Shown: piece after piece, positions 1,979-61,384 of the stretch
How positions within the stretch are numbered: position 1 is the stretch's first letter
Layout of the letters: each line of letters opens with the position of its first letter
Assembly (NCBI RefSeq): GCF_900176365.1
Contig: NZ_FWXY01000001.1
Coordinates: forward strand, 1-64,000
DNA: 64,000 nucleotides
Direction of reading: 5' to 3'
DNA from: Desulfocicer vacuolatum DSM 3385
GTDB taxonomy: Bacteria > Desulfobacterota > Desulfobacteria > Desulfobacterales > Desulfobacteraceae
The notes under the pieces: generated by a model
The model's input: the letters and a program-made list of their open reading frames with translations, nothing else
What the model was told of the DNA's origin: nothing
The model's database searches: none
Program-made: the position numbers and the translations under genes

Positions 1979-3958
1979 ATGGATACAGGAAATATAGTAG
2001 AATATATTGATCAGCAAAGAGTGGTTTGTGCGGTGGTGATGCAGCTCAAGAACCTGCGGTTAAAATTGCTCACGGAAAACAACCGTGAAGTCAATCTTGC
2101 CACAGGACGACTGGCCCACATCTCCCGGGAGGGACTCAACCCTTCTGCCTCCAGGGAATCCCTGGTAAGAGAGTTAAAGCTCATCTCCCAGAAAAGACGG
2201 AATCTGGCACAAACCCTTGATGTTGAGGAGTTGTGGGAACTGCTCCACGAGGATGGAGAAGCCATTGATATCCCCACCATGACAGCTCTTTGCTTTGATC
2301 CCCCGGTGACACCGGACCATGAGTCCGCCGTGATCCGGGCATTTTTCAGTGACAAGCTTTATTTCAAATTCGGCAAAGACATTTTAACCCCCAATACGCC
2401 GGAGCACATTGAGCTCAAACGCAGACAGATCCGGGAAGCCGAAGCCAAAAAACGCCTCATTGATAAAGGAAGTGCATGGTTCAAAGGCATGGACCAGGGC
2501 AAAACCACAGACCCGCCTGATCCTGAAATCATCAAAATTCTCACCGATTATTATATCCATGAAAAAGAGAGCAAAACCGCCAATGACGCCAAGGCCATTC
2601 TCTCTCGGACGGGCACTGAATCCCCCCATCAGATTTTCAACATCATGGTCAAAGCCGGTATCTGGAATAAAGATGAAAACCTTGACCTCATCCGTCTTGA
2701 TATTCCCACCAAGTTCCCATCTTCGGTCATGGAAAAGGCCGACGGCCTGATCACAGCCCATGGGGATTTCACCCAAGATCCCCTGAGAAAAGACCTGAGA
2801 GATGTGCCTCTTATTACCATTGACGGCCAGTCCACCCTGGACTATGATGATGCCATCAGCCTTCAAAAAAAGGAAGACGGAGGCTATCTTCTGGGAATTC
2901 ACATCATTGACGTGGGCTTTTATATCAAAAATGATGATATCATTGATAAAGATGCCAGGGACAGGGCCAGCTCCATTTACATGCCCGATGATAAAATTCC
3001 CATGCTGCCCCCCAATCTGTCCGAAGATCTTTGCAGCCTGCGGGAAGGAGAACTGCGGCCCGGCATATCCACCCTGGTAAATCTCAACCGTTTTTTTGAA
3101 ATCATTGACTATGAGGTTACGGCCAGCATCATTAAAGTACACCACCAGATGACCTACACCGAAGCCAATATGCTCAACGGCGAAGACGACCCTGTCACCA
3201 CACTTCACAAAATTGCCACGGTGCTCCGGGAAAAGCGCATCAAGGCTGGGGCCGTGCAGATCACCCTGCCCGAGGTCAATATCTGGGTGGAAGAAAACGG
3301 AGAAATCGGCATCTCCCGCATTGACCGGGAAAATCCATCCAGAATGCTGGTGTCTGAAATGATGATCCTTGCCAATTCTCTCATGGCAGAATTCCTTGCA
3401 TCCCATGAGGTTCCTGCGGTGTTCAGATCCCAGCCCGAACCCAAACAGCGCCTGTTCCAGGGGGTGGAAACATCATTGTTCATGAACTGCATGCAGAGAA
3501 AACAGCTCAACCGGGCCGCCACCGGCACCAAACCGGCCCCCCATTCCGGACTGGGGGTAAAAGCCTATTCCACGGCCACCTCCCCCATCAGAAGATACGT
3601 TGATCTGATCACCCAGCGTCAAATCCGGGGCATTCTGGGATATGAAAAGCCCTATACCAGAGATGAGCTTGAATCCATTCTCCAGAGAATTGATATCCCC
3701 ATGTCCAACACAGGCAGAGCCCAGTTCCAGCGACGCCGCTACTGGCTGCTTAAATATCTGGAAGGCATGAAAGGCTCTGCCCAGGAAGCCGTTGTTCTTG
3801 ACAGTCGCAGGGATTTTTTCACCATCCTCATAAAGGAGTTCATGTTAGAGTGGAGACTGCCATCCGGGGGCATGAAACTAAAACCGGGAGACTTGGTCCA
3901 GGTAACCATCCAGCACGCCGATGCCCGACGGGATCAACTCTCTTTATTCAGCTATTAA
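1979..3958 (+). CDS. RNB-domain exoribonuclease (RNase II/R family)
   Basis: A 3'-to-5' exoribonuclease of the RNase II/R superfamily. The catalytic RNB signature is visible with its metal-binding aspartates: D282 in TIDG and D288, D290, D291 in LDYDDA. The YMPD...MLPP stretch and the SPIRRYVDLITQRQI motif follow. At 659 residues it lacks the full cold-shock and S1 arrangement of E. coli RNase R; the C-terminal 50 residues look like a reduced S1-type fold. I chose ATG 1979 because residues after it (GNIVEYID) are typical of deltaproteobacterial relatives as I recall them; a TTG at 1958 lies upstream of the predicted transcription start. No Shine-Dalgarno precedes 1979. A strong hairpin terminator follows at 3,980. 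Confidence 0.9.
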   Translation: MDTGNIVEYIDQQRVVCAVVMQLKNLRLKLLTENNREVNLATGRLAHISREGLNPSASRESLVRELKLISQKRRNLAQTLDVEELWELLHEDGEAIDIPTMTALCFDPPVTPDHESAVIRAFFSDKLYFKFGKDILTPNTPEHIELKRRQIREAEAKKRLIDKGSAWFKGMDQGKTTDPPDPEIIKILTDYYIHEKESKTANDAKAILSRTGTESPHQIFNIMVKAGIWNKDENLDLIRLDIPTKFPSSVMEKADGLITAHGDFTQDPLRKDLRDVPLITIDGQSTLDYDDAISLQKKEDGGYLLGIHIIDVGFYIKNDDIIDKDARDRASSIYMPDDKIPMLPPNLSEDLCSLREGELRPGISTLVNLNRFFEIIDYEVTASIIKVHHQMTYTEANMLNGEDDPVTTLHKIATVLREKRIKAGAVQITLPEVNIWVEENGEIGISRIDRENPSRMLVSEMMILANSLMAEFLASHEVPAVFRSQPEPKQRLFQGVETSLFMNCMQRKQLNRAATGTKPAPHSGLGVKAYSTATSPIRRYVDLITQRQIRGILGYEKPYTRDELESILQRIDIPMSNTGRAQFQRRRYWLLKYLEGMKGSAQEAVVLDSRRDFFTILIKEFMLEWRLPSGGMKLKPGDLVQVTIQHADARRDQLSLFSY

Positions 3959-3979
3959 GCGCCCCCCTGAAACAAAAGC

Positions 3980-4033
3980 AAAACCGCCACGGGCAGACCA
4001 AGACATAGCCTTGGTCTGCCCGTGGCGGTTTTT
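3980..4033. terminator. Bidirectional hairpin terminator, R1-type repeat
   Basis: A perfect 23-bp stem (AAAACCGCCACGGGCAGACC... pairing with its complement) closes a 7-base loop and is flanked by A and T runs. It lies between the convergent ribonuclease gene and purH pair, so it can end transcription from both sides. The arm CCGCCACGGGCAGACC is shared with the R1 repeats at 23,041, 37,101 and 61,185-61,352, so the terminator seems to have been built from, or to be a remnant of, that repeat family. Confidence 0.8.
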
Positions 4034-4114
4034 ATATGATAAAGGGCCGGGAAGCCCCCCCCATGTAAGGAGTCTACAACCCAAGCCCTTGAATTGGTCA
4101 AACAATCAACAATA

Positions 4115-5365
4115 TTAATGTTTAAAACTTCTCTGACCGGTGTAAACCATGGTGGCATTGTTTTCGTTACACGCCTCAATCACCTCATAATCATTCATGG
4201 AGCCACCGGGCTGAATCACCGATTTAATGCCTTGATTTAATCCCACATCAATGCCGTCCCTGAAGGGAAAAAAAGCATCGCTGACCATGGTCGAACCAAT
4301 GAGTCCGCCCTTTTGGGTTTCCACATCCGCAGTAATTTCTGCCCGTTTGTCCAGATCAGTCAGCAGATTAAACGGTGTGTCATATCTTTCAAAGGAAAAT
4401 CGATCCATTAATTTTCGATAGGCCTTATCAACGGCAATTTCTGCCACACCCACCCGGTCCTGCTCTCCGGTACCGATGCCCACAGTGACATTATCCTTCA
4501 CATAAATCACCGAATTGGAGGTGATGCCGGACTCCACCAGCCACCCAAAGAGCATGTCCTGATACTCCTGCTCTGTGGGCTCCCGGTCCACCTTATAGGT
4601 TTTATCTTTGTACACTGTTTCGGCAACTTTCAAATCATCCCTGGAAAGGGCCGTGGGGGCAAAGGACCATTGGGCCACAATACCGCCGTCCATGAGACTC
4701 TTAAAATCCAGGACCCGCTCTCCAATGTAATTTTCCAGTCGATGGATATTATTGATACGAATCACCCGCAGATTCTTCCGCCGGGCCAGAATATCCACAA
4801 CACCGTCTTCAAAATCAGGTGCAACCACCACCTCGGCATACTGGTTGGCAATGGCTTCTGCCGTGGCTTTATCCACAGATCGATTCAAGGCAATGCATCC
4901 GCCAAAGGCTGCCACCCGATCTGCCATGTAAGCCTTTTCATAGGCACTTTCCAGGCTGTCTGAAATGGCTGCACCACAAGGGTTGTTATGCTTTACAATC
5001 ACCGCACCCGGGGTGGCGGAAAAATACCGTAAAATATTAAGCGCATTGTCGGCATCGGTGAGATTTGTCTTACCGGGATGTTTGCCCGACTGAAGAAGCT
5101 CCAGATTGGACACCATGTATTTTCCCGGCTGAATGGTTTCAATGCCCCCCAATACCAGGTTGCCGTTTACCAGGCGATAAAGGGCTGCTTCCTGGCCGGG
5201 ATTTTCACCATAGCGCAACCCTTTTTCTATGCCGTCAATGGTCCATGCCACTTTATCATAAAACAGGGTCTGACGACCGTTTTCATCCACAAAGCTGATC
5301 TCCATGGACGGGGTAAAGTGGTCATCCATCACTGTTTTGTACATTTTTTTTAAATCATCTGCCAT
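4115..5365 (-). CDS. purH: AICAR formyltransferase, stand-alone half of PurH
   Basis: Catalyses 10-formyl-tetrahydrofolate-dependent formylation of AICAR, the ninth step of purine synthesis. The protein has the AICARFT motifs RYGENPGQ (51-58), KHNNPCG (125-131, with the catalytic Lys-His pair), SDAFFPF (362-368) and the R-x-F-x-H C-terminus. In most bacteria this domain is the C-terminal part of bifunctional PurH. Here it is its own 416-residue protein and the cyclohydrolase is encoded just upstream on the same strand (93-base gap). The AGAGGA ribosome binding site ahead of ATG 5365 supports an independent start, so this is a true split and not a frameshift. Confidence 0.93.
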   Translation of the reverse strand: MADDLKKMYKTVMDDHFTPSMEISFVDENGRQTLFYDKVAWTIDGIEKGLRYGENPGQEAALYRLVNGNLVLGGIETIQPGKYMVSNLELLQSGKHPGKTNLTDADNALNILRYFSATPGAVIVKHNNPCGAAISDSLESAYEKAYMADRVAAFGGCIALNRSVDKATAEAIANQYAEVVVAPDFEDGVVDILARRKNLRVIRINNIHRLENYIGERVLDFKSLMDGGIVAQWSFAPTALSRDDLKVAETVYKDKTYKVDREPTEQEYQDMLFGWLVESGITSNSVIYVKDNVTVGIGTGEQDRVGVAEIAVDKAYRKLMDRFSFERYDTPFNLLTDLDKRAEITADVETQKGGLIGSTMVSDAFFPFRDGIDVGLNQGIKSVIQPGGSMNDYEVIEACNENNATMVYTGQRSFKH

Positions 5366-5458
5366 TTTTTATTCCTCTGTGCTGTTTTTTTAAGAAAAAT
5401 CCGTGCAAGACACTGGTTTTTATCCTTCTTTGCGGACAGAACAAAACCGGTATGGAAT

Positions 5459-6142
5459 CTATCCCCGGCAGTTATAGCAGGCTGCCATATCATCCACGGA
5501 CATCTCTCCCAGGTAGTCTGCAATGGTTCTGTCATACACTGCGGTGTGTTCAAATGCCTTTTGTGAAAGTGCAAACCGGTCCGCCAGGGTCAACGCCCCG
5601 CTGTTTTTTTCCATGCTCTGCAAAATACCCGCATAATCATCGGGATTCACCACCGAGGCCACCCGGATAAAATTCTTTGCCGATGCCCGGATCATGGTGG
5701 GCCCGCCAATGTCAATGTTGCCCCTGGCGTTTTCGCAGGTGATCCCCTGTTTTTCAATGGTCTCCTTAAAGGGATAAAGATTCACCACCACCATATCAAT
5801 GGCCAAAGAATCGGTGCGTTTCAAATCATTTTGGTGATCTGGATTGTAAGTTTCCGTGAGAAGGCCAAGGTAAATCCTGAAATCCAATGTTTTCACAAGA
5901 CCGCCCTGGGTTTCGGGCTGACCGGTATAGTCAGACACCTGCTGCAGGCAGTCCTTTGCCCGATCCCCCAGAATCTCTTTAATCCGACCATGGGTCCCGC
6001 CGGTGGAGAGAATTTTCACCTGGGGATTAATATCCAGCAATCCGGGAACAAATGTTTCCAGTCCGGATTTATCAGAAACACTCACCAGAACCGTTTTGAT
6101 TTTTACGGCATCATCAATTTTATTTACAATATTCTTATCCAT
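5459..6142 (-). CDS. purH: IMP cyclohydrolase, stand-alone half of PurH
   Basis: Closes the ring of FAICAR to give IMP, the last step of purine synthesis. The MGS-like fold is evident: LVSVSDKSGLE near 19-29, STGGT at 46-50, VSDYTGQPE, then DMVVVNLYPF and NIDIGGPTMIRASAKN. The 227-residue length matches only the N-terminal domain of ordinary PurH (about 200 residues) plus a short lead. It ends in an ordinary stop codon 93 bases before the formyltransferase gene and has its own GGGTGG-type ribosome binding site. It is the first gene of a two-gene purine unit behind the promoter at 6,328-6,357. Both halves keep their active-site motifs. Confidence 0.93.
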   Translation of the reverse strand: MDKNIVNKIDDAVKIKTVLVSVSDKSGLETFVPGLLDINPQVKILSTGGTHGRIKEILGDRAKDCLQQVSDYTGQPETQGGLVKTLDFRIYLGLLTETYNPDHQNDLKRTDSLAIDMVVVNLYPFKETIEKQGITCENARGNIDIGGPTMIRASAKNFIRVASVVNPDDYAGILQSMEKNSGALTLADRFALSQKAFEHTAVYDRTIADYLGEMSVDDMAACYNCRG

Positions 6143-12869: not shown

Positions 12870-13310
12870 ATGTTTAGATCCAGCTCATTTCACACCATGG
12901 ACCCCAAAGGACGGCTTATCATTCCGTCCCGGTTCAAGAGCGTCATTGAGGCCGGTGGGGCAAATGAACTGATGATCACCACCAATGCAGGCTGTATTTA
13001 CGCTTACACCATGAAAAAATGGACAGAAATAGAAAAGAAACTCATGGTGGTTAAACTGGATTATATGACCCGATTCAAACGGATATTTCTTGGTAATGCC
13101 ACCCTTTGCAGCTGTGATAAACAAGACAGGATACTGATTCCCAAACCCCTTAGAGTTTATGCCGGTCTTAAAAAAAAGATTGTACTGGTGGGGCTGCTGG
13201 ACCGATTTGAAATCTGGTCCATGGAGGGCTGGGAGATGGAGGGGAACAAATTTAATGATGACCTTAATCAACCGGATGTAAGCAAAACAGTTGCATCCCT
13301 GGGACTTTAA
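12870..13310 (+). CDS. mraZ: Transcriptional regulator MraZ
   Basis: The DNA-binding regulator at the head of dcw clusters. It has two SpoVT-AbrB-like halves: FRSSSFHTMDPKGRLIIPSRF at the start, and the second half with FLGNATLCSCDKQDRILIPKPLR. Each half contains the D-x-x-x-R-[IL]-x-[IL]-P signature. Length 146 residues is normal. ATG 12870 is chosen because the conserved protein begins there; an in-frame start at 12765 would add 35 unrelated residues. It is followed three bases later by rsmH, so the two are co-transcribed, and it probably acts on the GTGGA boxes at 12,641. Confidence 0.95.
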   Translation: MFRSSSFHTMDPKGRLIIPSRFKSVIEAGGANELMITTNAGCIYAYTMKKWTEIEKKLMVVKLDYMTRFKRIFLGNATLCSCDKQDRILIPKPLRVYAGLKKKIVLVGLLDRFEIWSMEGWEMEGNKFNDDLNQPDVSKTVASLGL

Positions 13311-13313
13311 TCA

Positions 13314-14252
13314 ATGCATTTTGAACATACATCTGTCATGCCCGTGGAAGTGGATCTGCACCTGAACCTTAAACCGGGGGATGTGTGTGTGGACGGCACC
13401 CTGGGGGGGGCAGGCCATGCATCACAAATGGTGAAACGGATTTCTCCGGAGGGCACATTCATCGGCATTGACCAGGACATGGATGCCATTGTAAATGCCT
13501 ACAAAAAATTATCCTGCAAAGAGACACAAATCACCATAGTGCATGATAATTTTTCCCACATGCCGCAGGTCCTTGACAAACTTCAAATACCGGGGGTGGA
13601 CGCCATCCTCCTTGATCTTGGGCTTTCCCTTCATCAATTGAGAAAGGGGCAGCGGGGCTTTAGTTTTTTAAAGGATGAACCCCTTGATATGCGCATGGAT
13701 AAACGCCAGGGACTCACGGCTGCCGACATTGTCAACACCTTTACCCTGAAAGCACTTACAGATCTGTTTTTTTCCTACGGGGAGGAACGGATGTCCCGGC
13801 AGATTGCCCGCAAAATTGTTGACCTTCGCCGGCAATCCCCCATCATGACCAGCGCCCGGCTCGCTGACATCATTGTGGACACCGTTCCCGCAAAAATAGC
13901 CAGAAACCAAAAAATTCATCCTGCCACCAGGGTGTTTCAGGCCCTGCGGATCAAAGTAAACCGGGAACTGGAACGTCTGGAAAAAATCATGAAAGAGATT
14001 CCGCAACTTCTCAACCCCGGGGGAAGGATCTGTATCATTGCCTTTCATTCCCTGGAGGATAGAATTGTAAAGCACGGCATCAGGGCCTTTGAAGAGGGAT
14101 GCACCTGCCCCAGGGATTTTCCCCAGTGCACCTGCGGGTTTACCCCCTCTTTAAGATCAATATCAAGAAAACCCTTCATGCCCACTGCTGAAGAGTGCAT
14201 TGCCAATCCCATGGCCCGGAGTGCCCGACTGCGGGTTGCTGAAAGAATATAA
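13314..14252 (+). CDS. rsmH: 16S rRNA m4C1402 methyltransferase RsmH
   Basis: Methylates N4 of C1402 in the decoding centre using S-adenosylmethionine. Motifs: EHTSVMPVEV at the start, the SAM-binding DGTLGGAGHA, LLDLGLSLHQL, FSFLKDEPLDMRMD, then the C-terminal IAFHSLEDRIVKHG. 312 residues is typical. It follows mraZ with almost no gap, as in most dcw clusters. Confidence 0.97.
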   Translation: MHFEHTSVMPVEVDLHLNLKPGDVCVDGTLGGAGHASQMVKRISPEGTFIGIDQDMDAIVNAYKKLSCKETQITIVHDNFSHMPQVLDKLQIPGVDAILLDLGLSLHQLRKGQRGFSFLKDEPLDMRMDKRQGLTAADIVNTFTLKALTDLFFSYGEERMSRQIARKIVDLRRQSPIMTSARLADIIVDTVPAKIARNQKIHPATRVFQALRIKVNRELERLEKIMKEIPQLLNPGGRICIIAFHSLEDRIVKHGIRAFEEGCTCPRDFPQCTCGFTPSLRSISRKPFMPTAEECIANPMARSARLRVAERI

Positions 14253-17972: not shown

Positions 17973-19420
17973 TCTCCTTTTCCCCCATCCCCTGGCACAC
18001 AGACCACATCATTGAAGCCCTTGAAACAGCCCAAACACCCCTTATTGCCCCCTGCACCTTTCCCAAGGTTGCCACGGACTCAAGGACCATGGCAACACAA
18101 GATCTCTTTGTGGCCATTAAGGGAGAGACCTTTGACGGACACCGTTTTGTCAAGCCGCTCATGGACAGGGGCGTCAGGGGATTTGTGGTGGAAAGCTCAT
18201 TTTTCCAGAAGCTTTCCCCGGCTGAAAAGAAAAAATTGATATCCAAAGGCATATCTTTTTTTTGTGTGGAAAACACATTGACGGCCCTGGGAAAACTTGC
18301 AGCCTTCCAGAGAAACCGGGCCAATGTAAAGGTGATCGGCATCACCGGTTCCTGTGGAAAAACCTCCACCCGGGAAATGATTACAACCATTTTCAAACAA
18401 AAATACAAAGTGCTCACCACCCAGGGAAATTTTAACAATGAAATAGGCCTGCCCCTGACCCTGCTCAACTTATCCCATGACCACCAGTGGGCCGTGGTGG
18501 AAATGGGTATGAACCATTCAGGAGAGCTCACCCGCCTGGGGAAAATAGCCCGGCCGGACATGGGTATTATCACCAACACTTTCCGGGCACACCTGGAGGG
18601 CCTGGGGTCTGTGGAGGCAGTGGCCCGGGCAAAATCAGAACTGCTGCCGTGCATCCGGGACAAGGGCCTTGCCATTCTCAACAGGGATGATAAACGGTTC
18701 CATATCATGGAAGAAATTGTGGAGCGGTTGAACATCCCCCATTGCGTGTTTGGCATTACAAAAGACGCCCGGATCAGGGCCCAGGAGATCTGCCAGAAAG
18801 AGGACAGTCTCAACTTTACCCTGCATTGCCCTGGGAAAAAAGGCAGTGACAGTGTGGAGATAACCCTTGCCACCCCGGCACCGGCCATGGTGGAAAATGC
18901 CCTGGCAGCGGCAACAGCGGCCCTCAAGGCCGGTTTCAGCCTGGCTGAAATTAAAAAAGGCCTGGCTGATTTCACACCGGTGAAGGGTCGTATGGAAATA
19001 CTGGAACCGGGGTGTGGCATAAAACTCATCAACGACACCTATAATGCCAACCCCGGTTCCATGGCAGCGGCCCTGGACATGATAAGTCACCACACCGGCC
19101 CCACCATTGCGGTGCTGGGGGATATGCTGGAACTGGGAGGAAAGGCCCCCATACTGCACAAAGAGGTGGGCCAAAGGGCCGCCATGTCCGGTATCTCCCA
19201 TCTGTTTATCCACGGAGATATGGCGCTCCATGTCATGGAAGGTGCCCTGGAAAAAGGATTTCCCAGGGAAAAAATCTTCATTGGAAGCCACCCGGAACTG
19301 ATCAAAAAAATCATACAAAAACTGACGCCCCAAATGAGAATCCTTGTGAAAGGGTCCCGGGGAATGCGCATGGAACATATTGTAACGGCATTGCACAACC
19401 ACCTTGGAGAAAAAAATTAA
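17969..19420 (+). CDS. murF: UDP-MurNAc-tripeptide:D-Ala-D-Ala ligase MurF
   Basis: Adds the D-Ala-D-Ala dipeptide to complete the stem peptide. It shows the Mur ligase order: N-terminal UDP-binding domain with DSRTM, ATP loop GITGSCGKTST (about residues 127-137), NNEIGLPLTLL, EMGMNHSGEL, and C-terminal NDTYNANPGSM. 483 residues. The ligase ddl that supplies the dipeptide is not in this cluster. It overlaps murE by four bases. Confidence 0.96.
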   Translation: MISFSPIPWHTDHIIEALETAQTPLIAPCTFPKVATDSRTMATQDLFVAIKGETFDGHRFVKPLMDRGVRGFVVESSFFQKLSPAEKKKLISKGISFFCVENTLTALGKLAAFQRNRANVKVIGITGSCGKTSTREMITTIFKQKYKVLTTQGNFNNEIGLPLTLLNLSHDHQWAVVEMGMNHSGELTRLGKIARPDMGIITNTFRAHLEGLGSVEAVARAKSELLPCIRDKGLAILNRDDKRFHIMEEIVERLNIPHCVFGITKDARIRAQEICQKEDSLNFTLHCPGKKGSDSVEITLATPAPAMVENALAAATAALKAGFSLAEIKKGLADFTPVKGRMEILEPGCGIKLINDTYNANPGSMAAALDMISHHTGPTIAVLGDMLELGGKAPILHKEVGQRAAMSGISHLFIHGDMALHVMEGALEKGFPREKIFIGSHPELIKKIIQKLTPQMRILVKGSRGMRMEHIVTALHNHLGEKN

Positions 19421-19422
19421 TC

Positions 19423-20502
19423 ATGCTTTATGATCTTTTATATCCACTCCATACGGATATTTCTTTTTTTAATATATTCAGATACATCACCTTCCGAACC
19501 ATCTATGGAGGACTCACCGCCTTTACCCTATGTTTTCTCTTGGGTCCCTGGGCCATTAAACGGCTCTCCCGGCTCCAGATCGGACAAATCATTCAAAAGG
19601 ACGGACCCCAGACCCACCTGGACAAGGAGGGCACCCCCACCATGGGAGGGTTGCTCATTCTCTTCTCCATTGGGGTATCCACCCTTTTCTGGGCCAGGCT
19701 GTCCAACCACTACATCTCCATCACCCTTTTAAGCCTTATGCTCTTTGGGTTCATCGGATTCATTGATGACTATCTCATGCAGGTGAAAAAACGAAACATG
19801 GGATTCACAGCCCGGGGGAAATTCATATTGCAAATCATTGCAGGCCTGGGGATTTCGTGGCTTATTTACCACTGCCCGGACTTTACAAGTGAACTGACCA
19901 TACCCTTTTTCAAATCCTTGTCTCCGGATCTTGGCATCTGGTATATTCCCTTTGCCACCCTGATCATTGTGGGCACCTCCAATGCAGTGAATCTCACCGA
20001 TGGACTGGATGGCCTGGCCATCGGCCCCATCATCATTGCCGCAGTGGCCTACATGCTCTTTGCCTATGTGGCAGGGCATGCCAAGATTGCCCAATACCTC
20101 CAGGTGCAGTCCATTGCCTCCTGTGGAGAGCTTTCCATTGTGTGCGGCATTCTTGCCGGGGCAGGCCTTGGTTTTTTGTGGTTCAACGCCCATCCTGCCC
20201 AGGTTTTCATGGGGGATTCCGGTTCCATTCCATTGGGAGCCGTTCTGGGAACCATTGCTGTGATGACCAAACAGGAAATTCTTCTTTTACTGGTGGGGGG
20301 ATTGTTTGTCATTGAGGCATTGTCTGTGATAATACAGGTGGGCTATTTCAAAATGAGCAACGGTAAACGGGTATTCCGCATGGCCCCCCTGCATCACCAT
20401 TTTGAACTCAAGGGATGGCCGGAATCCAAGGTTATTGTCCGATTCTGGATCATTTCCATCACCCTGGCCCTTGTCTCATTGAGCAGCCTTAAAATAAGAT
20501 AG
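19423..20502 (+). CDS. mraY: Phospho-MurNAc-pentapeptide translocase MraY
   Basis: Membrane enzyme that transfers phospho-MurNAc-pentapeptide to undecaprenyl phosphate, making lipid I. About ten hydrophobic segments in 359 residues. Signature motifs: DGPQTHLDKEGTPTMGG, the DDY acid pair in GFIDDYLM, NAVNLTDGLDGLA, and the histidine motif APLHHHFELKGWPE. It starts two bases after murF. Confidence 0.97.
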   Translation: MLYDLLYPLHTDISFFNIFRYITFRTIYGGLTAFTLCFLLGPWAIKRLSRLQIGQIIQKDGPQTHLDKEGTPTMGGLLILFSIGVSTLFWARLSNHYISITLLSLMLFGFIGFIDDYLMQVKKRNMGFTARGKFILQIIAGLGISWLIYHCPDFTSELTIPFFKSLSPDLGIWYIPFATLIIVGTSNAVNLTDGLDGLAIGPIIIAAVAYMLFAYVAGHAKIAQYLQVQSIASCGELSIVCGILAGAGLGFLWFNAHPAQVFMGDSGSIPLGAVLGTIAVMTKQEILLLLVGGLFVIEALSVIIQVGYFKMSNGKRVFRMAPLHHHFELKGWPESKVIVRFWIISITLALVSLSSLKIR

Positions 20503-20511
20503 GAACCATTA

Positions 20512-21870
20512 ATGACTCACATGTCTCATCCATATATCCTGGTGGTGGGCCTGGGAAAATCAGGCATTGCCATGGCCCGTTTTTTAAAAAAAAGGGGAAA
20601 CAGCGTGGTGATCACGGACAGTGATCCCAATATGAAAAAAAAGGCCAAAGCGCTTGAAAAAATGGGGATCACCACAGAAATCGGACCGCACAATGCCACC
20701 ACCTTTGACCGGGCCCGGATGATCATTGCAAGCCCGGGAATCCCCCTTGACATGCCCCATCTTAAAAGGGCCGCCCAAAGGAAAATCCCCATCAGGGGGG
20801 AACTGGATGTGGCCGCAGAACAGATCAAAGTTCCTGTGGTGGCTGTGACAGGCACCAATGGTAAAACCACGGTGACCACCTTGATTGATCTTTTACTTAA
20901 ATCTTCCCACACCGCTGTTTTCACCGGTGGTAACATCGGTGTGCCCCTTACCCGGTATTTTGATGAAGACGTCCCGGCAACGGTGGTGGTGGCAGAGGTG
21001 AGCAGCTTCCAGCTGGATACCGCCATGGCATTTAAGCCCCATGTGGCCGTTCTTTTAAACATCACACCGGATCACATGGATCGCTACAGCAGTTTTGCAG
21101 CCTATGCCGGGTCCAAATGGAGTATTTTTGCCCACCAGGACAAAAATGATGTGGCCATCCTGGGAAGCAGCCTGTCCACGTATAAAAAAGAGATTCAAGC
21201 ACTCAAGGCAACACCTTTTTTCATTCGCCCGGCCCATGAAACACCCCCCGAAAACGGGGCGCACATCCAGGAAAAGAGCATCCGTTTTTACACCCGGGGC
21301 AAGCAAATGGCCGGGAAGCTGCTCATTTCAAAAATACGCATCAAGGGCAAACACAACCTGGAAAATATTGCGGCATCTGCCCTGGCAGCCCTGTGCATGG
21401 GAACCCCCATGGCCGACATTGAACAAATTGTGTATCACTTTCCAGGGCTGGAGCACCGCATGGAATTTTCAGGATATGTGAACGGCATTCCCTATTACAA
21501 CGACTCCAAAGCCACCAATCCCGATGCCGTGATAAAGGCGGTTTCCTGCTTCAAAAACCTCATTCTCATCATGGGGGGGAAAGAAAAGAACACAGATTTT
21601 TCTTCCTTAAAGTCCAGTGTCACATCCCGGGTAAAGCATCTGATTCTCATGGGAGAAGCAGCAAACAACATTCAAAAAGCGCTTAGGGGCTCATGTGACA
21701 TCACCCAGGTGGGCACCATGGCATCTGCCGTGGCCCTGGCCCGTACCCTGGCCCGAAAAAACGATACAGTCATGCTTTCCCCGGCCTGTGCAAGTTTTGA
21801 CATGTATTCAAGCTATGGACACCGGGGGGATGATTTTAAACATCAAATCAAACAATTGACAATGCCATGA
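20512..21870 (+). CDS. murD: UDP-MurNAc-L-alanine:D-glutamate ligase MurD
   Basis: Adds D-glutamate to UDP-MurNAc-L-Ala. N-terminal nucleotide fold with GLGKSGIAMARFL, ATP loop VTGTNGKTTVTTL (about residues 115-127), VAEVSSFQLDT, NITPDHMDRY and C-terminal NDSKATNPDAV and LSPACASFDMYSSYGHRG. 452 residues. Two ATGs occur at the start (20512 and 20521); the first is kept. Its stop overlaps the ftsW ATG. Confidence 0.97.
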   Translation: MTHMSHPYILVVGLGKSGIAMARFLKKRGNSVVITDSDPNMKKKAKALEKMGITTEIGPHNATTFDRARMIIASPGIPLDMPHLKRAAQRKIPIRGELDVAAEQIKVPVVAVTGTNGKTTVTTLIDLLLKSSHTAVFTGGNIGVPLTRYFDEDVPATVVVAEVSSFQLDTAMAFKPHVAVLLNITPDHMDRYSSFAAYAGSKWSIFAHQDKNDVAILGSSLSTYKKEIQALKATPFFIRPAHETPPENGAHIQEKSIRFYTRGKQMAGKLLISKIRIKGKHNLENIAASALAALCMGTPMADIEQIVYHFPGLEHRMEFSGYVNGIPYYNDSKATNPDAVIKAVSCFKNLILIMGGKEKNTDFSSLKSSVTSRVKHLILMGEAANNIQKALRGSCDITQVGTMASAVALARTLARKNDTVMLSPACASFDMYSSYGHRGDDFKHQIKQLTMP

Positions 21871-23153
21871 TAACAAAAAACAACATCACAGCTCCGTTTT
21901 CCCGTGAACCTGCCATATTGATACCTGTTTTGATCATCACAGGCCTTGGCATTGCCATGGTTTACAGTGCCAGTGCTGACATCAGTGTGGCAAAACACAA
22001 CACCTCGATGTACTATGCCGGACGTCAGGCCATCTTTCTTCTTCTGGGACTTGTGGTGATGTATGTCGGGGCCTTGTTTCCCCATGAACATTTTAAAAAA
22101 CTGGTTTATCCCATCCTGGGGACTGCCCTGATTCTCATGGTGGGGGTGTTGACGCCCCTGGGAGCCGGGGCCGGTGGGGCCTGTCGCTGGATCACCGTCA
22201 AGGGGCTCACCTTTCAACCCTCGGAACTGCTTAAACTGGGCCTGGTGCTCTATCTTGCCTACTCCCTTTCCACCAAACAGGAAAATATCCGCTCATTTTG
22301 TATCGGTTTTTTACCCCACTTGCTACTTCTCACCGTGTTAACGGCCCTTCTGGTATTTCAAAGGGATCTTGGATCCATTGTCATCATTGGCTTTATTACA
22401 TGGACCATGATGTTCATTGCCGGTGTACCCATGCTGCAACTTTCCACTGTTATTCCCCTTGGGGCAGCGGTTTTTTATTTTTTTGTGTACAATGAGCCCT
22501 ATCGATGGGAACGGGTGCGATTCTTCATGGACCCATGGCAGGATCCCCTGAACGCAGGATACCAACTGACCCATTCCCTTAAAGCCTTTGGAGCCGGAGG
22601 GGTTCTGGGAAAGGGCCTGGGCCTGGGCTTCCAGACGGTCCATTACCTTCCCAAACCCCACACAGACTTTATCTTTTCCGTCATCGGAGAGGAATTGGGA
22701 CTTGTGGGGGTTTTAGCCACCCTTGTGCTTTATATCCTTATTTTAAAACGGGGCGCTGTCATTGCCCGAACAGCCCACACCGTTTTCGGAAGCTTTCTGG
22801 CTGCGGGCATTACCATTCATCTGGGGCTCCAGGTGGTTATCAACACCGGTGTCACCCTGGGGGTGCTCCCCACCAAGGGACTTCCCCTGCCCTTTATCAG
22901 CTATGGCGGCACCTCCCTTGTGGTGAGCATGGCAGCCATGGGTGTTCTGATGAACATCGGCAGGACCGGCACCGAAATCCCCCGGGAAAAACACGCCACC
23001 CCACAAGATCAATCCACAATACCACCTGTTTCAATAACTGCCACGGACAGACCATATTCTGATCCGGTTCTGCCCACAACAAAACATGAAAACCCGTCAA
23101 ATTTGGCGAAAATTTCTTATAAAAAAGGGAAAGCCATTGTCCAAACCTATTAA
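21867..23153 (+). CDS. ftsW: Septal peptidoglycan polymerase FtsW, with a repeat-derived C-terminal tail
   Basis: SEDS-family glycosyltransferase that builds septal glycan with FtsI. About ten membrane segments; motifs include the PSELLKLGLVLYLAYSLS loop, QRDLGS, the DFIFSVIGEELGLVG loop and the final LPFISYGGTSLVV. The core ends around residue 370. Residues 393-428 are encoded by an R1 repeat (23,041-23,125) that also occurs outside genes, so this tail is probably acquired and dispensable. The gene runs 17 bases past the likely murG start. Confidence 0.95.
   Translation: MITKNNITAPFSREPAILIPVLIITGLGIAMVYSASADISVAKHNTSMYYAGRQAIFLLLGLVVMYVGALFPHEHFKKLVYPILGTALILMVGVLTPLGAGAGGACRWITVKGLTFQPSELLKLGLVLYLAYSLSTKQENIRSFCIGFLPHLLLLTVLTALLVFQRDLGSIVIIGFITWTMMFIAGVPMLQLSTVIPLGAAVFYFFVYNEPYRWERVRFFMDPWQDPLNAGYQLTHSLKAFGAGGVLGKGLGLGFQTVHYLPKPHTDFIFSVIGEELGLVGVLATLVLYILILKRGAVIARTAHTVFGSFLAAGITIHLGLQVVINTGVTLGVLPTKGLPLPFISYGGTSLVVSMAAMGVLMNIGRTGTEIPREKHATPQDQSTIPPVSITATDRPYSDPVLPTTKHENPSNLAKISYKKGKAIVQTY
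23041..23125 (+). repeat. R1 repeat inside the ftsW-murG junction
   Basis: Aligns along its length with 37,101-37,184: both share CAGACC-TATTCTGA-CCGGTTCTGCCCACAA, then AACCCGTCA and a TTATAAA end. Relatives are at 3,980 and 61,185-61,352. Here it is read as the end of ftsW and contains the ATG (23,086) that would give murG its longer form. Confidence 0.85.
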
Positions 23154-24252
23154 AATCATTATTGCCGGCGGTAAAACAGGGGGACATCTTTTTCCGGGAA
23201 TTGCCACGGCCCAGGCACTTAAAGAGCAGTCAAACTCCGTTGAAATTCTCTTTGTGGGCACCAATACCCCCTTTGAGAAAAAGACCCTTTTAAGGTACGG
23301 CTTTACCCATGTTGCCATCTCCTCCAGTGGGATTAAAGGAAAAGGCATCCGGGAAAAACTGTCTGCCATGGCCACGATTCCCTTTTCCGTTTTCCAGGCT
23401 GCCTGGATCATTGTTTCCTTTAAGCCGGATCTGGTACTGGGGGTGGGCGGATATTCATCCGGCCCGGTGCTCATGGCGGCCAGGATTCTTGGAAAAAGAA
23501 CGGCCATCCAGGAACAAAATGCCATCCCCGGCATCACCAACCGTATATTGTCACGCATTGTGCATAAAATATTTATTTCCTTTAAAAACACAAAGGGGTT
23601 TCCCGCCGGGGCAAATATCATCCTCACCGGAAATCCCATCCGAAGGGCAACCCCTTCCCCGGAAGCAGACCTTTCCCATGAGATGCCGTTGCCATCCTTT
23701 CCTGGCAACGGATTCAACCTTCTTATCACCGGGGGAAGCCAGGGGGCAGCCAGTATTAATAAAGCTGTTGTGGAGGCCATGCAACGCCTGAGTGATACAT
23801 CTTCATACACAGTGATCCACCAGACTGGCAAAAATGACCAGAAACAGGTGGTAAACGCCTACAAAGAAATGGACATAAACGCAACGGCCCGGGCATTTTT
23901 CCATGACATGCCCCAACGCCAGAAACAAGCCGATCTCATCATCTGCAGGGCCGGAGCCGGTACTTTATCGGAAATCACCTCCCTTGGTAAACCGGCCATT
24001 CTGGTGCCCTATCCCCATGCTGCAGATGATCACCAGCGCCACAATGCCATGGCCCTGGTGCAACAGGGGGCGGCCATGATGATCCTGGACCATGAACTCA
24101 ATGGAAACCGTCTTGGAAAACGCATTGAACAGCTGAGAAAAAATCCGGAAAAACTAAAAAGAATGGCCCAACAAGCAAAAAAAATTGGCATGCCCCATGC
24201 CCGGAACACCGTGGCCCGGGAAATTATCCACCTCATTACAAAGAACAGGTAA
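23137..24252 (+). CDS. murG: Lipid II-forming GlcNAc transferase MurG
   Basis: Adds GlcNAc to lipid I at the inner face of the membrane. GT-B glycosyltransferase with GGKTGGHLFPG near the start, QEQNAIPGITNR, the GGSQGA loop, and CRAGAGTLSEI with the H-D-x-x-Q-x-x-N-A region. The conserved protein starts right after TTG 23137 (LSKPIKII), giving 371 residues. An ATG at 23086 would add 17 basic residues coded by an R1 repeat; that start has no clear ribosome binding site. I prefer TTG, with moderate confidence. It overlaps the end of ftsW. Confidence 0.93.
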   Translation: MSKPIKIIIAGGKTGGHLFPGIATAQALKEQSNSVEILFVGTNTPFEKKTLLRYGFTHVAISSSGIKGKGIREKLSAMATIPFSVFQAAWIIVSFKPDLVLGVGGYSSGPVLMAARILGKRTAIQEQNAIPGITNRILSRIVHKIFISFKNTKGFPAGANIILTGNPIRRATPSPEADLSHEMPLPSFPGNGFNLLITGGSQGAASINKAVVEAMQRLSDTSSYTVIHQTGKNDQKQVVNAYKEMDINATARAFFHDMPQRQKQADLIICRAGAGTLSEITSLGKPAILVPYPHAADDHQRHNAMALVQQGAAMMILDHELNGNRLGKRIEQLRKNPEKLKRMAQQAKKIGMPHARNTVAREIIHLITKNR

Positions 24253-33555: not shown

Positions 33556-34020
33556 ATGATCCTTGAATTGTATTGTACCTCCCACAACCGGACCCAGGCA
33601 GCAGGAGAAAAACTGGGTTCCCTGATCTCTTCACGCATGACCATGGCCCTGCACGGTGACCTGGGGGCAGGAAAAACCACCTTTGTCCAGGGAATAGCAA
33701 AGGGTCTTGGGGTACCGGACACCTATTATGTGACCAGCCCCACCTACACCCTTATCAATGAATACCCCGGCCGGGTCCCACTGTATCACATGGATCTTTA
33801 CCGCCTGGGCGACATTGATGAACTGGAATATCTGGGATTTGATGAGATCATCTCCTCCCCGGGGGCCATTGTTGTGGAGTGGCCGGAAATCCTGGGATCG
33901 CATTTTGTGAAATTTGATCTGGATATCACCATTAAAACAGATAAAGCCTTTAACCGTAAAATAATTATTAAAGCATCTGGACTTGACGGAACAAATCTGT
34001 TAAGGGAACTGTCTGTATAA
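33556..34020 (+). CDS. tsaE: tRNA t6A synthesis ATPase TsaE
   Basis: P-loop protein needed with TsaB and TsaD to make t6A37 in tRNA. Walker A GDLGAGKTTF at about residues 34-43, then VTSPTYTLINEY, HMDLYRL and VVEWPE. 154 residues, standard. Seven bases after nnr and probably co-transcribed. Directly followed by the repeat region at 34,050. Confidence 0.96.
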   Translation: MILELYCTSHNRTQAAGEKLGSLISSRMTMALHGDLGAGKTTFVQGIAKGLGVPDTYYVTSPTYTLINEYPGRVPLYHMDLYRLGDIDELEYLGFDEIISSPGAIVVEWPEILGSHFVKFDLDITIKTDKAFNRKIIIKASGLDGTNLLRELSV

Positions 34021-34049
34021 TTGCCATGGGTGGTTGGTATTTCCATCCG

Positions 34050-34210
34050 GGCCTGCCCACAACGAAGATTGAAAATGGTATTATACCGCCGCCGCCCCGA
34101 TGGGCAATGGGCCCGGACCGGAACTGTAGACAGCTCAATTGTCCGGTTCCTATTACCCATCGGGGGGGCGGCTCTGCTGAGGTTGCCTTGGAGGCTGCCG
34201 TTTCATATAA
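34050..34210 (+). repeat. R2 palindromic repeat, copy B, with left flank module
   Basis: 34,087-34,210 is the near-identical inverse of 6,385-6,510, with the same palindromic core and the same AGGTTG-CTTGGAGGCT-TTTCATATAA end. The 37 bases before it (GCCCACAACGAAGATTGAAAATGGTATTAT) also stand, in diverged form, at 37,070 before an R1 copy, so the two families share a border module. Confidence 0.85.
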
Positions 34211-34429
34211 ACCCACATGGCTGTAAGTACCAGCCACAACGAATAATGAAAAAGTAGTTGCTGTGAGTACCCAGAACCTAATACCCAGTACCCAGTACCC
34301 ACTTTTTCATATAAAAAAAAATCCCATCAATCCAGGGAAATTTTCAAACCCAAATATTAACACAAATCTGACCCCGTTCCACTTTGCCAAAATCCGGAAG
34401 CCGGGTCATTAAACATATCAGGAGTCGTT
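34211..34429 (+). other. Rest of the tsaE-lysC gap
   Basis: Contains a second partial border module (CAGCCACAACGAATAATGAAAAAGTA, about 34,231-34,256) and a short tandem stretch of TACCCAG units near 34,280. No gene or clear promoter seen. CAGGAG, the lysC ribosome binding site, closes the region. Confidence 0.4.
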
Positions 34430-37060: not shown

Positions 37061-37184
37061 CAGCCACAACAAATATTGAAAATAGTATGATGCAGCCCCC
37101 CCGACGGGCAGACCGTATTCTGACCCGGTTCTGCCCACAAAAAAGCATACAACCCGTCAGGTTTGCCGGGCGTTTTTTATAAAC
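37061..37184 (+). repeat. R1 repeat with border module, directly before selA
   Basis: Border module GCCACAACAAATATTGAAAA (37,062-37,081) is followed by an R1 unit (37,101-37,184): GGGCAGACC pairs with GGTTCTGCCC, then CCCG...CGGG and a TTTTTT run that by itself looks like a terminator. The repeat ends a few bases before the selA ribosome binding site, so it forms the selA leader. Confidence 0.8.
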
Positions 37185-61184: not shown

Positions 61185-61352
61185 AAATCTCCGCAAGGGG
61201 AAATATTTTCATACTTTGATGTGGGCGAACCAAGGTCATAGCCAGGGTCCGCCCGTGGCGGTTTTTATAAAATACCCCGCAGATCAGGAAAGTATTTTAA
61301 ACTTTGTTCCGGGCGAAACGAGATCAGAATACGGTCCGCCCGTGGCGGTTAT
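61185..61352 (-). repeat. Tandem pair of R1 repeats behind rpoC
   Basis: Two direct copies with an 87-base period: GGTCCGCCCGTGGCGGTT at 61,246 and at 61,333 on the plus strand. Read on the minus strand each has ACCGCCACGGGCGGACC, a GGTTCGCCC- or CGTTTCGCCC-type arm, and an AAAGT-T-AAAATA tail ending in a T-rich run. They lie between the rpoC stop codon and the rpsL promoter and may work as double terminators. Confidence 0.85.
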
Positions 61353-61384
61353 ACAGGAAATAATAATTTCAAAAGCGCGTATAA

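Follow-up and report, generated by a model that had tools for sequence, protein, structure and literature searches.

Introduction

The genes for FtsW and MurG overlap in the sulfate reducer Desulfocicer vacuolatum DSM 3385, and a first-pass annotation of the window (the whole stretch analysed here, the first 64,000 nucleotides of contig NZ_FWXY01000001.1) proposed that a dispersed intergenic repeat had been captured at their junction. This raises the question of what the repeat is, how it could come to lie at the junction of two essential genes, and where translation of MurG starts. Here, we describe the repeat and its copies, its structure, mobility and distribution, then return to the reading frames at the junction and finally compare the repeat with known kinds of short mobile sequence. 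The features of the locus are:

21867–23153, plus strand: ftsW, 428 amino acids (TIGR02614, E 1.1e-111, residues 17–366; residues 367–428 lie outside the profile match)
23032–23122, plus strand: R1 repeat unit with two hairpins and ATAA at both ends, in the 3′ end of ftsW (R1 model 95.6 bits, E 1.7e-17; R2 model, minus strand, 78.0 bits)
23034–23118, plus strand: net insertion of 85 nt if one ATAA was a pre-existing target, FtsW codons 390–418, the last in part (ATAA at 23034–23037 and 23119–23122; frame arithmetic)
23137–24252, plus strand: murG, 371 amino acids, start codon TTG 23137, overlapping the ftsW stop by 17 nt (TIGR01133, E 2.2e-90; start position common to relatives; preceded by AAGGGA)

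The repeat and its copies

The similarity that had been pointed out between 23,041–23,125 and 37,101–37,184 is real, and BLASTN within the window aligned 23043–23123 with 37104–37183 at 81.5% identity over 81 columns with one gap (E 1.6e-16). A covariance model of the repeat, termed R1, was built from 31 copies of one genome, and with it cmsearch placed the ftsW copy whole at 23032–23122 on the plus strand, a match that is partly by construction since this copy is among the 31 (it is in the alignments of both models, R1 and the family-wide R2 described below). The repeat thus lies at the ftsW–murG junction as proposed; the span first given to it falls, at its left end, some 9 nt short of that found by the covariance model. 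The consensus of the 31 copies is a 92-nt unit, ATATAACYGCCAYGGGCRGACCGTATTCTGATCCGGTTCYGCCCACAACAAAGCTTGAAATAC..CCCCTGATTTGCGGAGTATTTCATATAA, with a mean column identity of 89% and TATAA at either end, and in tandem copies one TATAA is common to neighbouring units, giving a period of about 86 nt.

The genome-wide search for further copies that the first-pass annotation had suggested was carried out on the source genome (5.04 Mb, 80 contigs) and yielded at least 151 matches to the R1 model, with the best 150 of 4356 candidates scored, so that 151 is probably a lower bound on copy number. The matches listed are all full length, and the ftsW copy lies outside them, the lowest score among those listed being 98.5 bits. 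The copy at 37 kb, used alone as a query, gave at least 48 matches in the genome at E<1e-3, itself included (best 40 of 468 candidates scored). In addition to the ftsW copy, the window contains the following members and related modules:

5388–5477, minus strand: weak R1 family member at the 3′ end of predicted gene 5459–6142 (R1 30.3 bits, E 0.0011; R2 26.5 bits, E 0.034)
34015–34086, plus strand: weak, shorter R1 family member (R1 33.7 bits, E 2.1e-4; R2 only 23.3 bits, E 0.16)
34205–34314, minus strand: another module with the same grammar as the R1 family (R2 31.1 bits, E 0.004)
37093–37182, plus strand: second R1 copy, chimeric at its left end and directly upstream of selA (ATG 37193) (R1 67 bits)
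61263–61354, minus strand: third strong R1 copy, then a second, more diverged tandem unit (R1 86.8 bits; sequence; repeat spacing 87)

The gene downstream of the second copy was identified as selA by TIGR00474 (E 3.3e-183). The copy itself looks chimeric, its left end (GCCCCCCCGACGGGCA) resembling another repeat module and its right part R1, and further modules are seen near the R1-like copy at 34 kb, one an inverted repeat rich in G and C and the other a unit whose first stem differs (34088–34172 and 34205–34314).

Structure of the repeat

Read on the minus strand, R1 has the grammar TTATAWGAAA, hairpin, TTTCA, TTYGTTGTGGGCNGA, loop, TCN'GCCCRTGGCNG and TTAT. Covariation was examined in a family-wide alignment (A4) of 21 sequences from 6 genera, and the pair counts were taken without the L018 row and two Desulfamplus rows. 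Two-sided changes are found in 3 of the 8 pairs of the left hairpin (21 sequences), whereas the right-end hairpin, CNGCC-CRT-GGCNG, is 97.1% paired in the same number of sequences and has one variable pair of five (UA 9, AU 4, CG 3 and GC 2). The joint covariation score was 0.225, compared with 0.088 on shuffling (0 of 500 shuffles as high) and 0.022–0.071 when the pairing was slid; the number of pairs with a two-sided change, four, was not above that in shuffles (mean 3.5; 257 of 500 as high). In an alternative, longer stem, the right arm pairs with a GGGCNGA arm. This stem is 86.2% paired and scored 0.164 versus 0.095 when shuffled, its single pair with a two-sided change again not exceeding the shuffles (1.4). 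Three segments (A4 columns 52–58, 86–93 and 96–100) co-vary at one position, so that two alternative hairpins, each excluding the other, are open to the right arm. The two-hairpin architecture of the R1 family is thus supported by covariation among genera; RNAalifold, applied to the 31 copies of the source genome, gave a fold with no two-sided changes, these copies being too alike.

The ftsW copy is a poor representative of this structure. Its plus-strand fold has a z-score of −1.54, compared with −3.85 and −4.13 for two typical copies, its minus-strand fold one of −2.73 compared with −4.89, and at 81.5% identity to the consensus it is the second lowest of the 31; the weak fold and low identity fit an older copy or a minor subtype. 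A search of the window against Rfam 15 gave no matches at gathering scores, and a typical R1 copy reached no more than 18.9 bits (E 0.71) where the cut-off is 82.

Mobility and target site

No empty site was found for the ftsW copy itself, the 57 other genomes compared including none of the source genus and the nearest having about 58% MurG identity. Mobility was seen in another genus. The clearest case is a copy in genus g7 (locus L193), where all seven congeners that have both flanks carry an empty site with the flanks intact. The empty form reads ..AGCA-NN-ATAAGGAG.. and the filled form ..GGCATTTATAAGAAAG...GCTGTTATAAGGAAC.. A second copy (L188) is missing from all 13 loci at which the right flank is present, and by eye the left-hand motif is retained at 12 of them; the left flank was not aligned by BLAST, which makes this weaker evidence than L193. 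These members of the R1 family are insertions that congeners lack, and the family is mobile. Together with the genome matches, this bears out the earlier description of the repeat as dispersed and of a mobile kind.

Both ends of R1 carry TTAT/ATAA and one ATAA is present in the empty site, an arrangement that fits duplication of the target or copying from the element end alike. In the source genome, the sequence just outside non-tandem copies is rich in T ahead of ATAA and rich in A behind it (65 and 68 copies, respectively, of 121 examined). At five loci (L079 1587, L174 1609, L028 1549, L158 1657 and L183 183), predicted genes upstream on the same strand end 4–5 nt inside the repeat, and the terminal ATAA seems to supply their stop codon.

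Distribution among relatives

The family was traced with R2, a structural covariance model of the family-wide grammar. Of 86 genomes in the source family, 48 carry members (the source genome among them), and these span 10 of 14 genera. A sample of 291 genomes from the whole class gave members in 38, of which 34 belong to the source family and four to other families of its order. In genomes in which several copies were seen, copies are more alike within one genome than between genera, which suggests repeated local amplification. In the available part of the paper on the genome of Desulfobacterium autotrophicum HRM2, the number of exact repeats of 50 bp or longer is given as 2357 and no repeat family is described (PMC2702500).

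One relative has units of this kind at the same junction. In Desulfamplus magnetovallimortis, the 313-nt gap between ftsW and murG contains two units that follow this grammar in opposite orientation (L032 5787–5949); only the second matches R2, and weakly (25 bits, E 0.07), the rest coming from reading of the sequence. There, the ftsW stop precedes the units and TTG is also found at the MurG start position. These units are apparently an independent landing at the same junction, and R2 detected no element at the ftsW–murG junctions of the other 30 relatives.

Genomic context of the copies

How often R1 enters genes was estimated from 148 copies drawn from 171 deduplicated matches (at least 70 model positions, mostly best-scoring), a sample that favours well-preserved copies, so that old intragenic copies are under-sampled. 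Genes were called with a simple fourth-order model trained on 137 ORFs from overlapping loci. By these calls, 125 copies touch no predicted gene, 13 overlap one by 1–39 nt and the other 10 by at least 40 nt. Nine of these 10 are 5′ extensions that arise from calling the longest ORF, in genes that have further start codons downstream of the repeat, leaving the ftsW copy as the only 3′ extension and the only clear in-gene capture in the sample. Among the 105 copies with both neighbours called, the downstream gene is on the R1 strand in 72 and the upstream gene in 58, the latter near even.

The ftsW–murG junction

The reading frames at the junction are as first described, with the FtsW stop at TAA 23151–23153 and both ATG 23086 and TTG 23137 in the MurG frame. 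Several conclusions that had been drawn from them need revision. What had been called an insertion into two essential genes starts 23 residues past the end of the TIGR02614 match (residue 366) and leaves 14 nt up to the murG start codon, and the conserved cores of FtsW and MurG are untouched. Nor is it supported that both frames were kept, as had been supposed: the net insert of 85 nt, for which the empty-site geometry is taken from copies in another genus, is not a multiple of three, and in a model of 21867–23300 without 23034–23118, FtsW runs into the MurG frame as one open frame, stop-free between. Since this excision model gives no separate ftsW stop, at least one further change is needed for the present arrangement; there may also be a sequencing indel in the contig. 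The selection invoked for an insert without stops in either frame is likewise unnecessary, as 15 of 139 full-length R1 copies, the ftsW copy included, are stop-free when read in the sense frame of FtsW, and the murG frame need not be open there. Read in the FtsW frame, the 92-nt consensus ends in TAA and the 91-nt ftsW copy does not, and the coding score of the repeat in this frame is negative, although less so than in the other two.

Of 33 fetched loci, 31 served for the comparison with relatives; L034 is the window itself, and in L033 murG has no neighbouring ftsW. FtsW of the window extends 63 amino acids past the last NIG-like motif, compared with 5–18 in 29 of the 31; in the remaining two, where the automatic anchor failed, it ends roughly 6–10 amino acids after MNIS by eye. 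The prediction that relatives would lack the FtsW tail is borne out, and none of the 31 has a comparable one. The 23 FtsW residues that precede the repeat are also absent from relatives. The corresponding stretch (22952–23033) had no significant match in the genome (best after self E 0.055), and its origin as a decayed second element was rejected. As these residues are neither shared with relatives nor derived from the repeat, the FtsW tail grew in at least two steps.

The start of MurG is well placed by the same comparison. Relatives had been expected to start MurG at the codon equivalent to TTG 23137, and 21 of 31 do so exactly (20 with ATG and one with TTG) and 28 of 31 within one codon, L046, L049 and L063 having no start codon in that range. 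The accompanying claim of a switch of the murG start is not supported by the same counts: the position has not moved, and only the codon, TTG in place of the usual ATG, differs. ATG 23086 was rejected as the MurG start, as it lies inside the repeat and has no Shine–Dalgarno sequence by eye, and is unlikely ever to have served as one. The two genes overlap in 26 of the 31 relatives, and the 17-nt overlap of the window equals that of four; ftsW and murG may thus have stayed coupled.

Origin of the FtsW tail

We consider it probable that 23032–23122 is a copy of R1, a lineage-amplified, non-coding mobile hairpin element, inserted at an ATAA/TTAT site between the conserved end of ftsW and the ribosome-binding site of murG, with read-through into the tail of FtsW and MurG starting at TTG 23137. 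In the proposed model, R1 would be moved in trans by a putative enzyme and inserted at this target, and translation of ftsW would then continue across the repeat, the 91-nt copy being open in this frame, and add about 28 repeat-encoded residues to the unconserved tail. FtsW would stop inside murG, as in several relatives, so that the gene overlap is kept, and synthesis of MurG would begin at TTG 23137, which has an AAGGGA of its own upstream. The FtsW tail is apparently dispensable and its repeat-encoded part most likely neutral.

A functional tail, selected to stay open because FtsW must end inside murG for translational coupling, is unlikely. It would account for the overlap of the ftsW stop with murG, which recurs in 26 of 31 relatives and with the same length in four, and for this copy being the only clear 3′ capture among 148, but an open FtsW frame is found in 15 of 139 copies although the survey detected no other clear in-gene copy, comparable tails are absent from all 31 relatives, and the repeat does not score as coding in that frame. 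Quite unlikely is that R1 is a structured regulatory RNA (a leader, terminator or sRNA) spread by duplication and regulatory at murG. Covariation of the hairpins and the same-strand downstream gene in 72 of 105 copies would be expected of such an RNA, yet the orientation of upstream genes is near even, single sites are present or absent among congeners, R1 forms tandem arrays, the window contains no Rfam match and a typical copy none near the cut-off, and the unit folds on both strands, which fits DNA as well as RNA. That the similarity reflects chance or low complexity is suggested by its short length only and has a negligible probability in view of the BLASTN E-value in the window and the at least 151 matches in the genome.

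The capture of the mobile repeat in ftsW is thus confirmed and is a fairly ordinary event in an apparently dispensable tail. Outside rickettsiae, it is an example of DNA from a mobile repeat that has come to encode the C-terminus of an essential division protein, the conserved cores being left alone.

Relation to known repeats and mobilizing enzymes

R1 is a new family of a known kind, the non-autonomous palindromic repeats. A full-text literature search found no published description of it and Rfam 15 has none, so that a major group of marine sulfate reducers appears to harbour an undescribed repeat family whose insertions differ between congeners. The closest known phenomenon to the ftsW capture, on the available part of the literature, is that of the Rickettsia palindromic elements (RPEs; Ogata et al. 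2000, 2002), short dispersed palindromes some of which are translated in frame in host genes and which are described in the accessible text as frequent in ORFs (PMC10969869). R1 resembles them as a short dispersed palindromic repeat with one copy read in frame inside a host gene; in contrast to RPEs, only one clear in-gene case was found in 148 sampled copies and the host is an unrelated sulfate reducer. Prokaryotic miniature inverted-repeat transposable elements (MITEs) such as BOX, Correia and ERIC, as far as they are covered in the same part of that source (PMC10969869), share with R1 a non-coding unit of about 90 nt, high copy number, absence in congeners and an AT-rich target at both ends. 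Unlike MITEs, R1 has no terminal inverted repeat, its ends TTATAWGAAA and GGCNGTTAT being non-complementary, and an autonomous partner was not found among 33 loci with Y1 genes. A further comparison is with MRSC-65-2, one of the ‘mobile/repeat sequence candidates’, which according to the accessible part of its description has one long covarying stem and a UYCCGG repeat, occurs in diverse phyla and is regarded as selfish (PMC11109978). Both have a covarying stem in many genomic copies, whereas R1 has two hairpins and TTAT ends and is nearly confined to one family; judged from that part of the source, R1 could be among the other 249 of the 250 candidates counted in its Table 1 (PMC11109978).

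Integron attC sites were rejected as a relationship, as the R1 ends do not fit the attC motif GTTRRRY. The repeats mobilized by Y1 enzymes offer a closer likeness in structure. REP sequences with their RAYT enzymes and elements of the IS200/IS605 type have imperfect subterminal hairpins, GTGG before the hairpin and a target-like TTAT; R1 likewise has imperfect subterminal hairpins, GTGG before the hairpin on the minus strand and TTAT at both ends, an architecture that would be compatible with single-strand mobilization of the IS200/IS605 type by Y1. In contrast to REP sequences, R1 has no linked RAYT gene flanked by the repeat: at C63 and C32, whose Y1 genes we take to be RAYT-like, no strong R1 match lies nearby. 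A search with PF01797 (Y1) found four genes in the source genome, none flanked by R1. Among 33 Y1 loci inspected, a subset of all Y1 matches made up of these four and 29 from elsewhere in the order, none has both R1 ends around the gene, and on these loci a Y1 transposase was rejected as the mobilizer of R1. Genome G004 (80% complete) has 49 scored copies and no Y1 match, which speaks against mobilization by Y1.

A bolder proposal would make R1 a new class of tiny single-strand (HUH-type) mobile element of Desulfobacteraceae, with a right end that switches between two exclusive hairpins and insertion 3′ of TTAT, whose insertion between the two essential genes ftsW and murG remade their translational overlap from mobile-element sequence; we regard this as doubtful and rather unlikely as a whole. 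The defined target and covarying end structure of the R1 family provide a handle for finding its enzyme. The Y1 genes at C63 carry GGGGTCAGGCTTCGCTTATT-type repeats, and nearby R1 matches are weak (best 20.4 bits). At locus L098, three PF01797 Y1 genes (3526–4524, 13174–14064 and 18510–19463) lie within 16 kb, and inverted repeats of the GGGGTCAGGCTTCGCTTATT type surround them.
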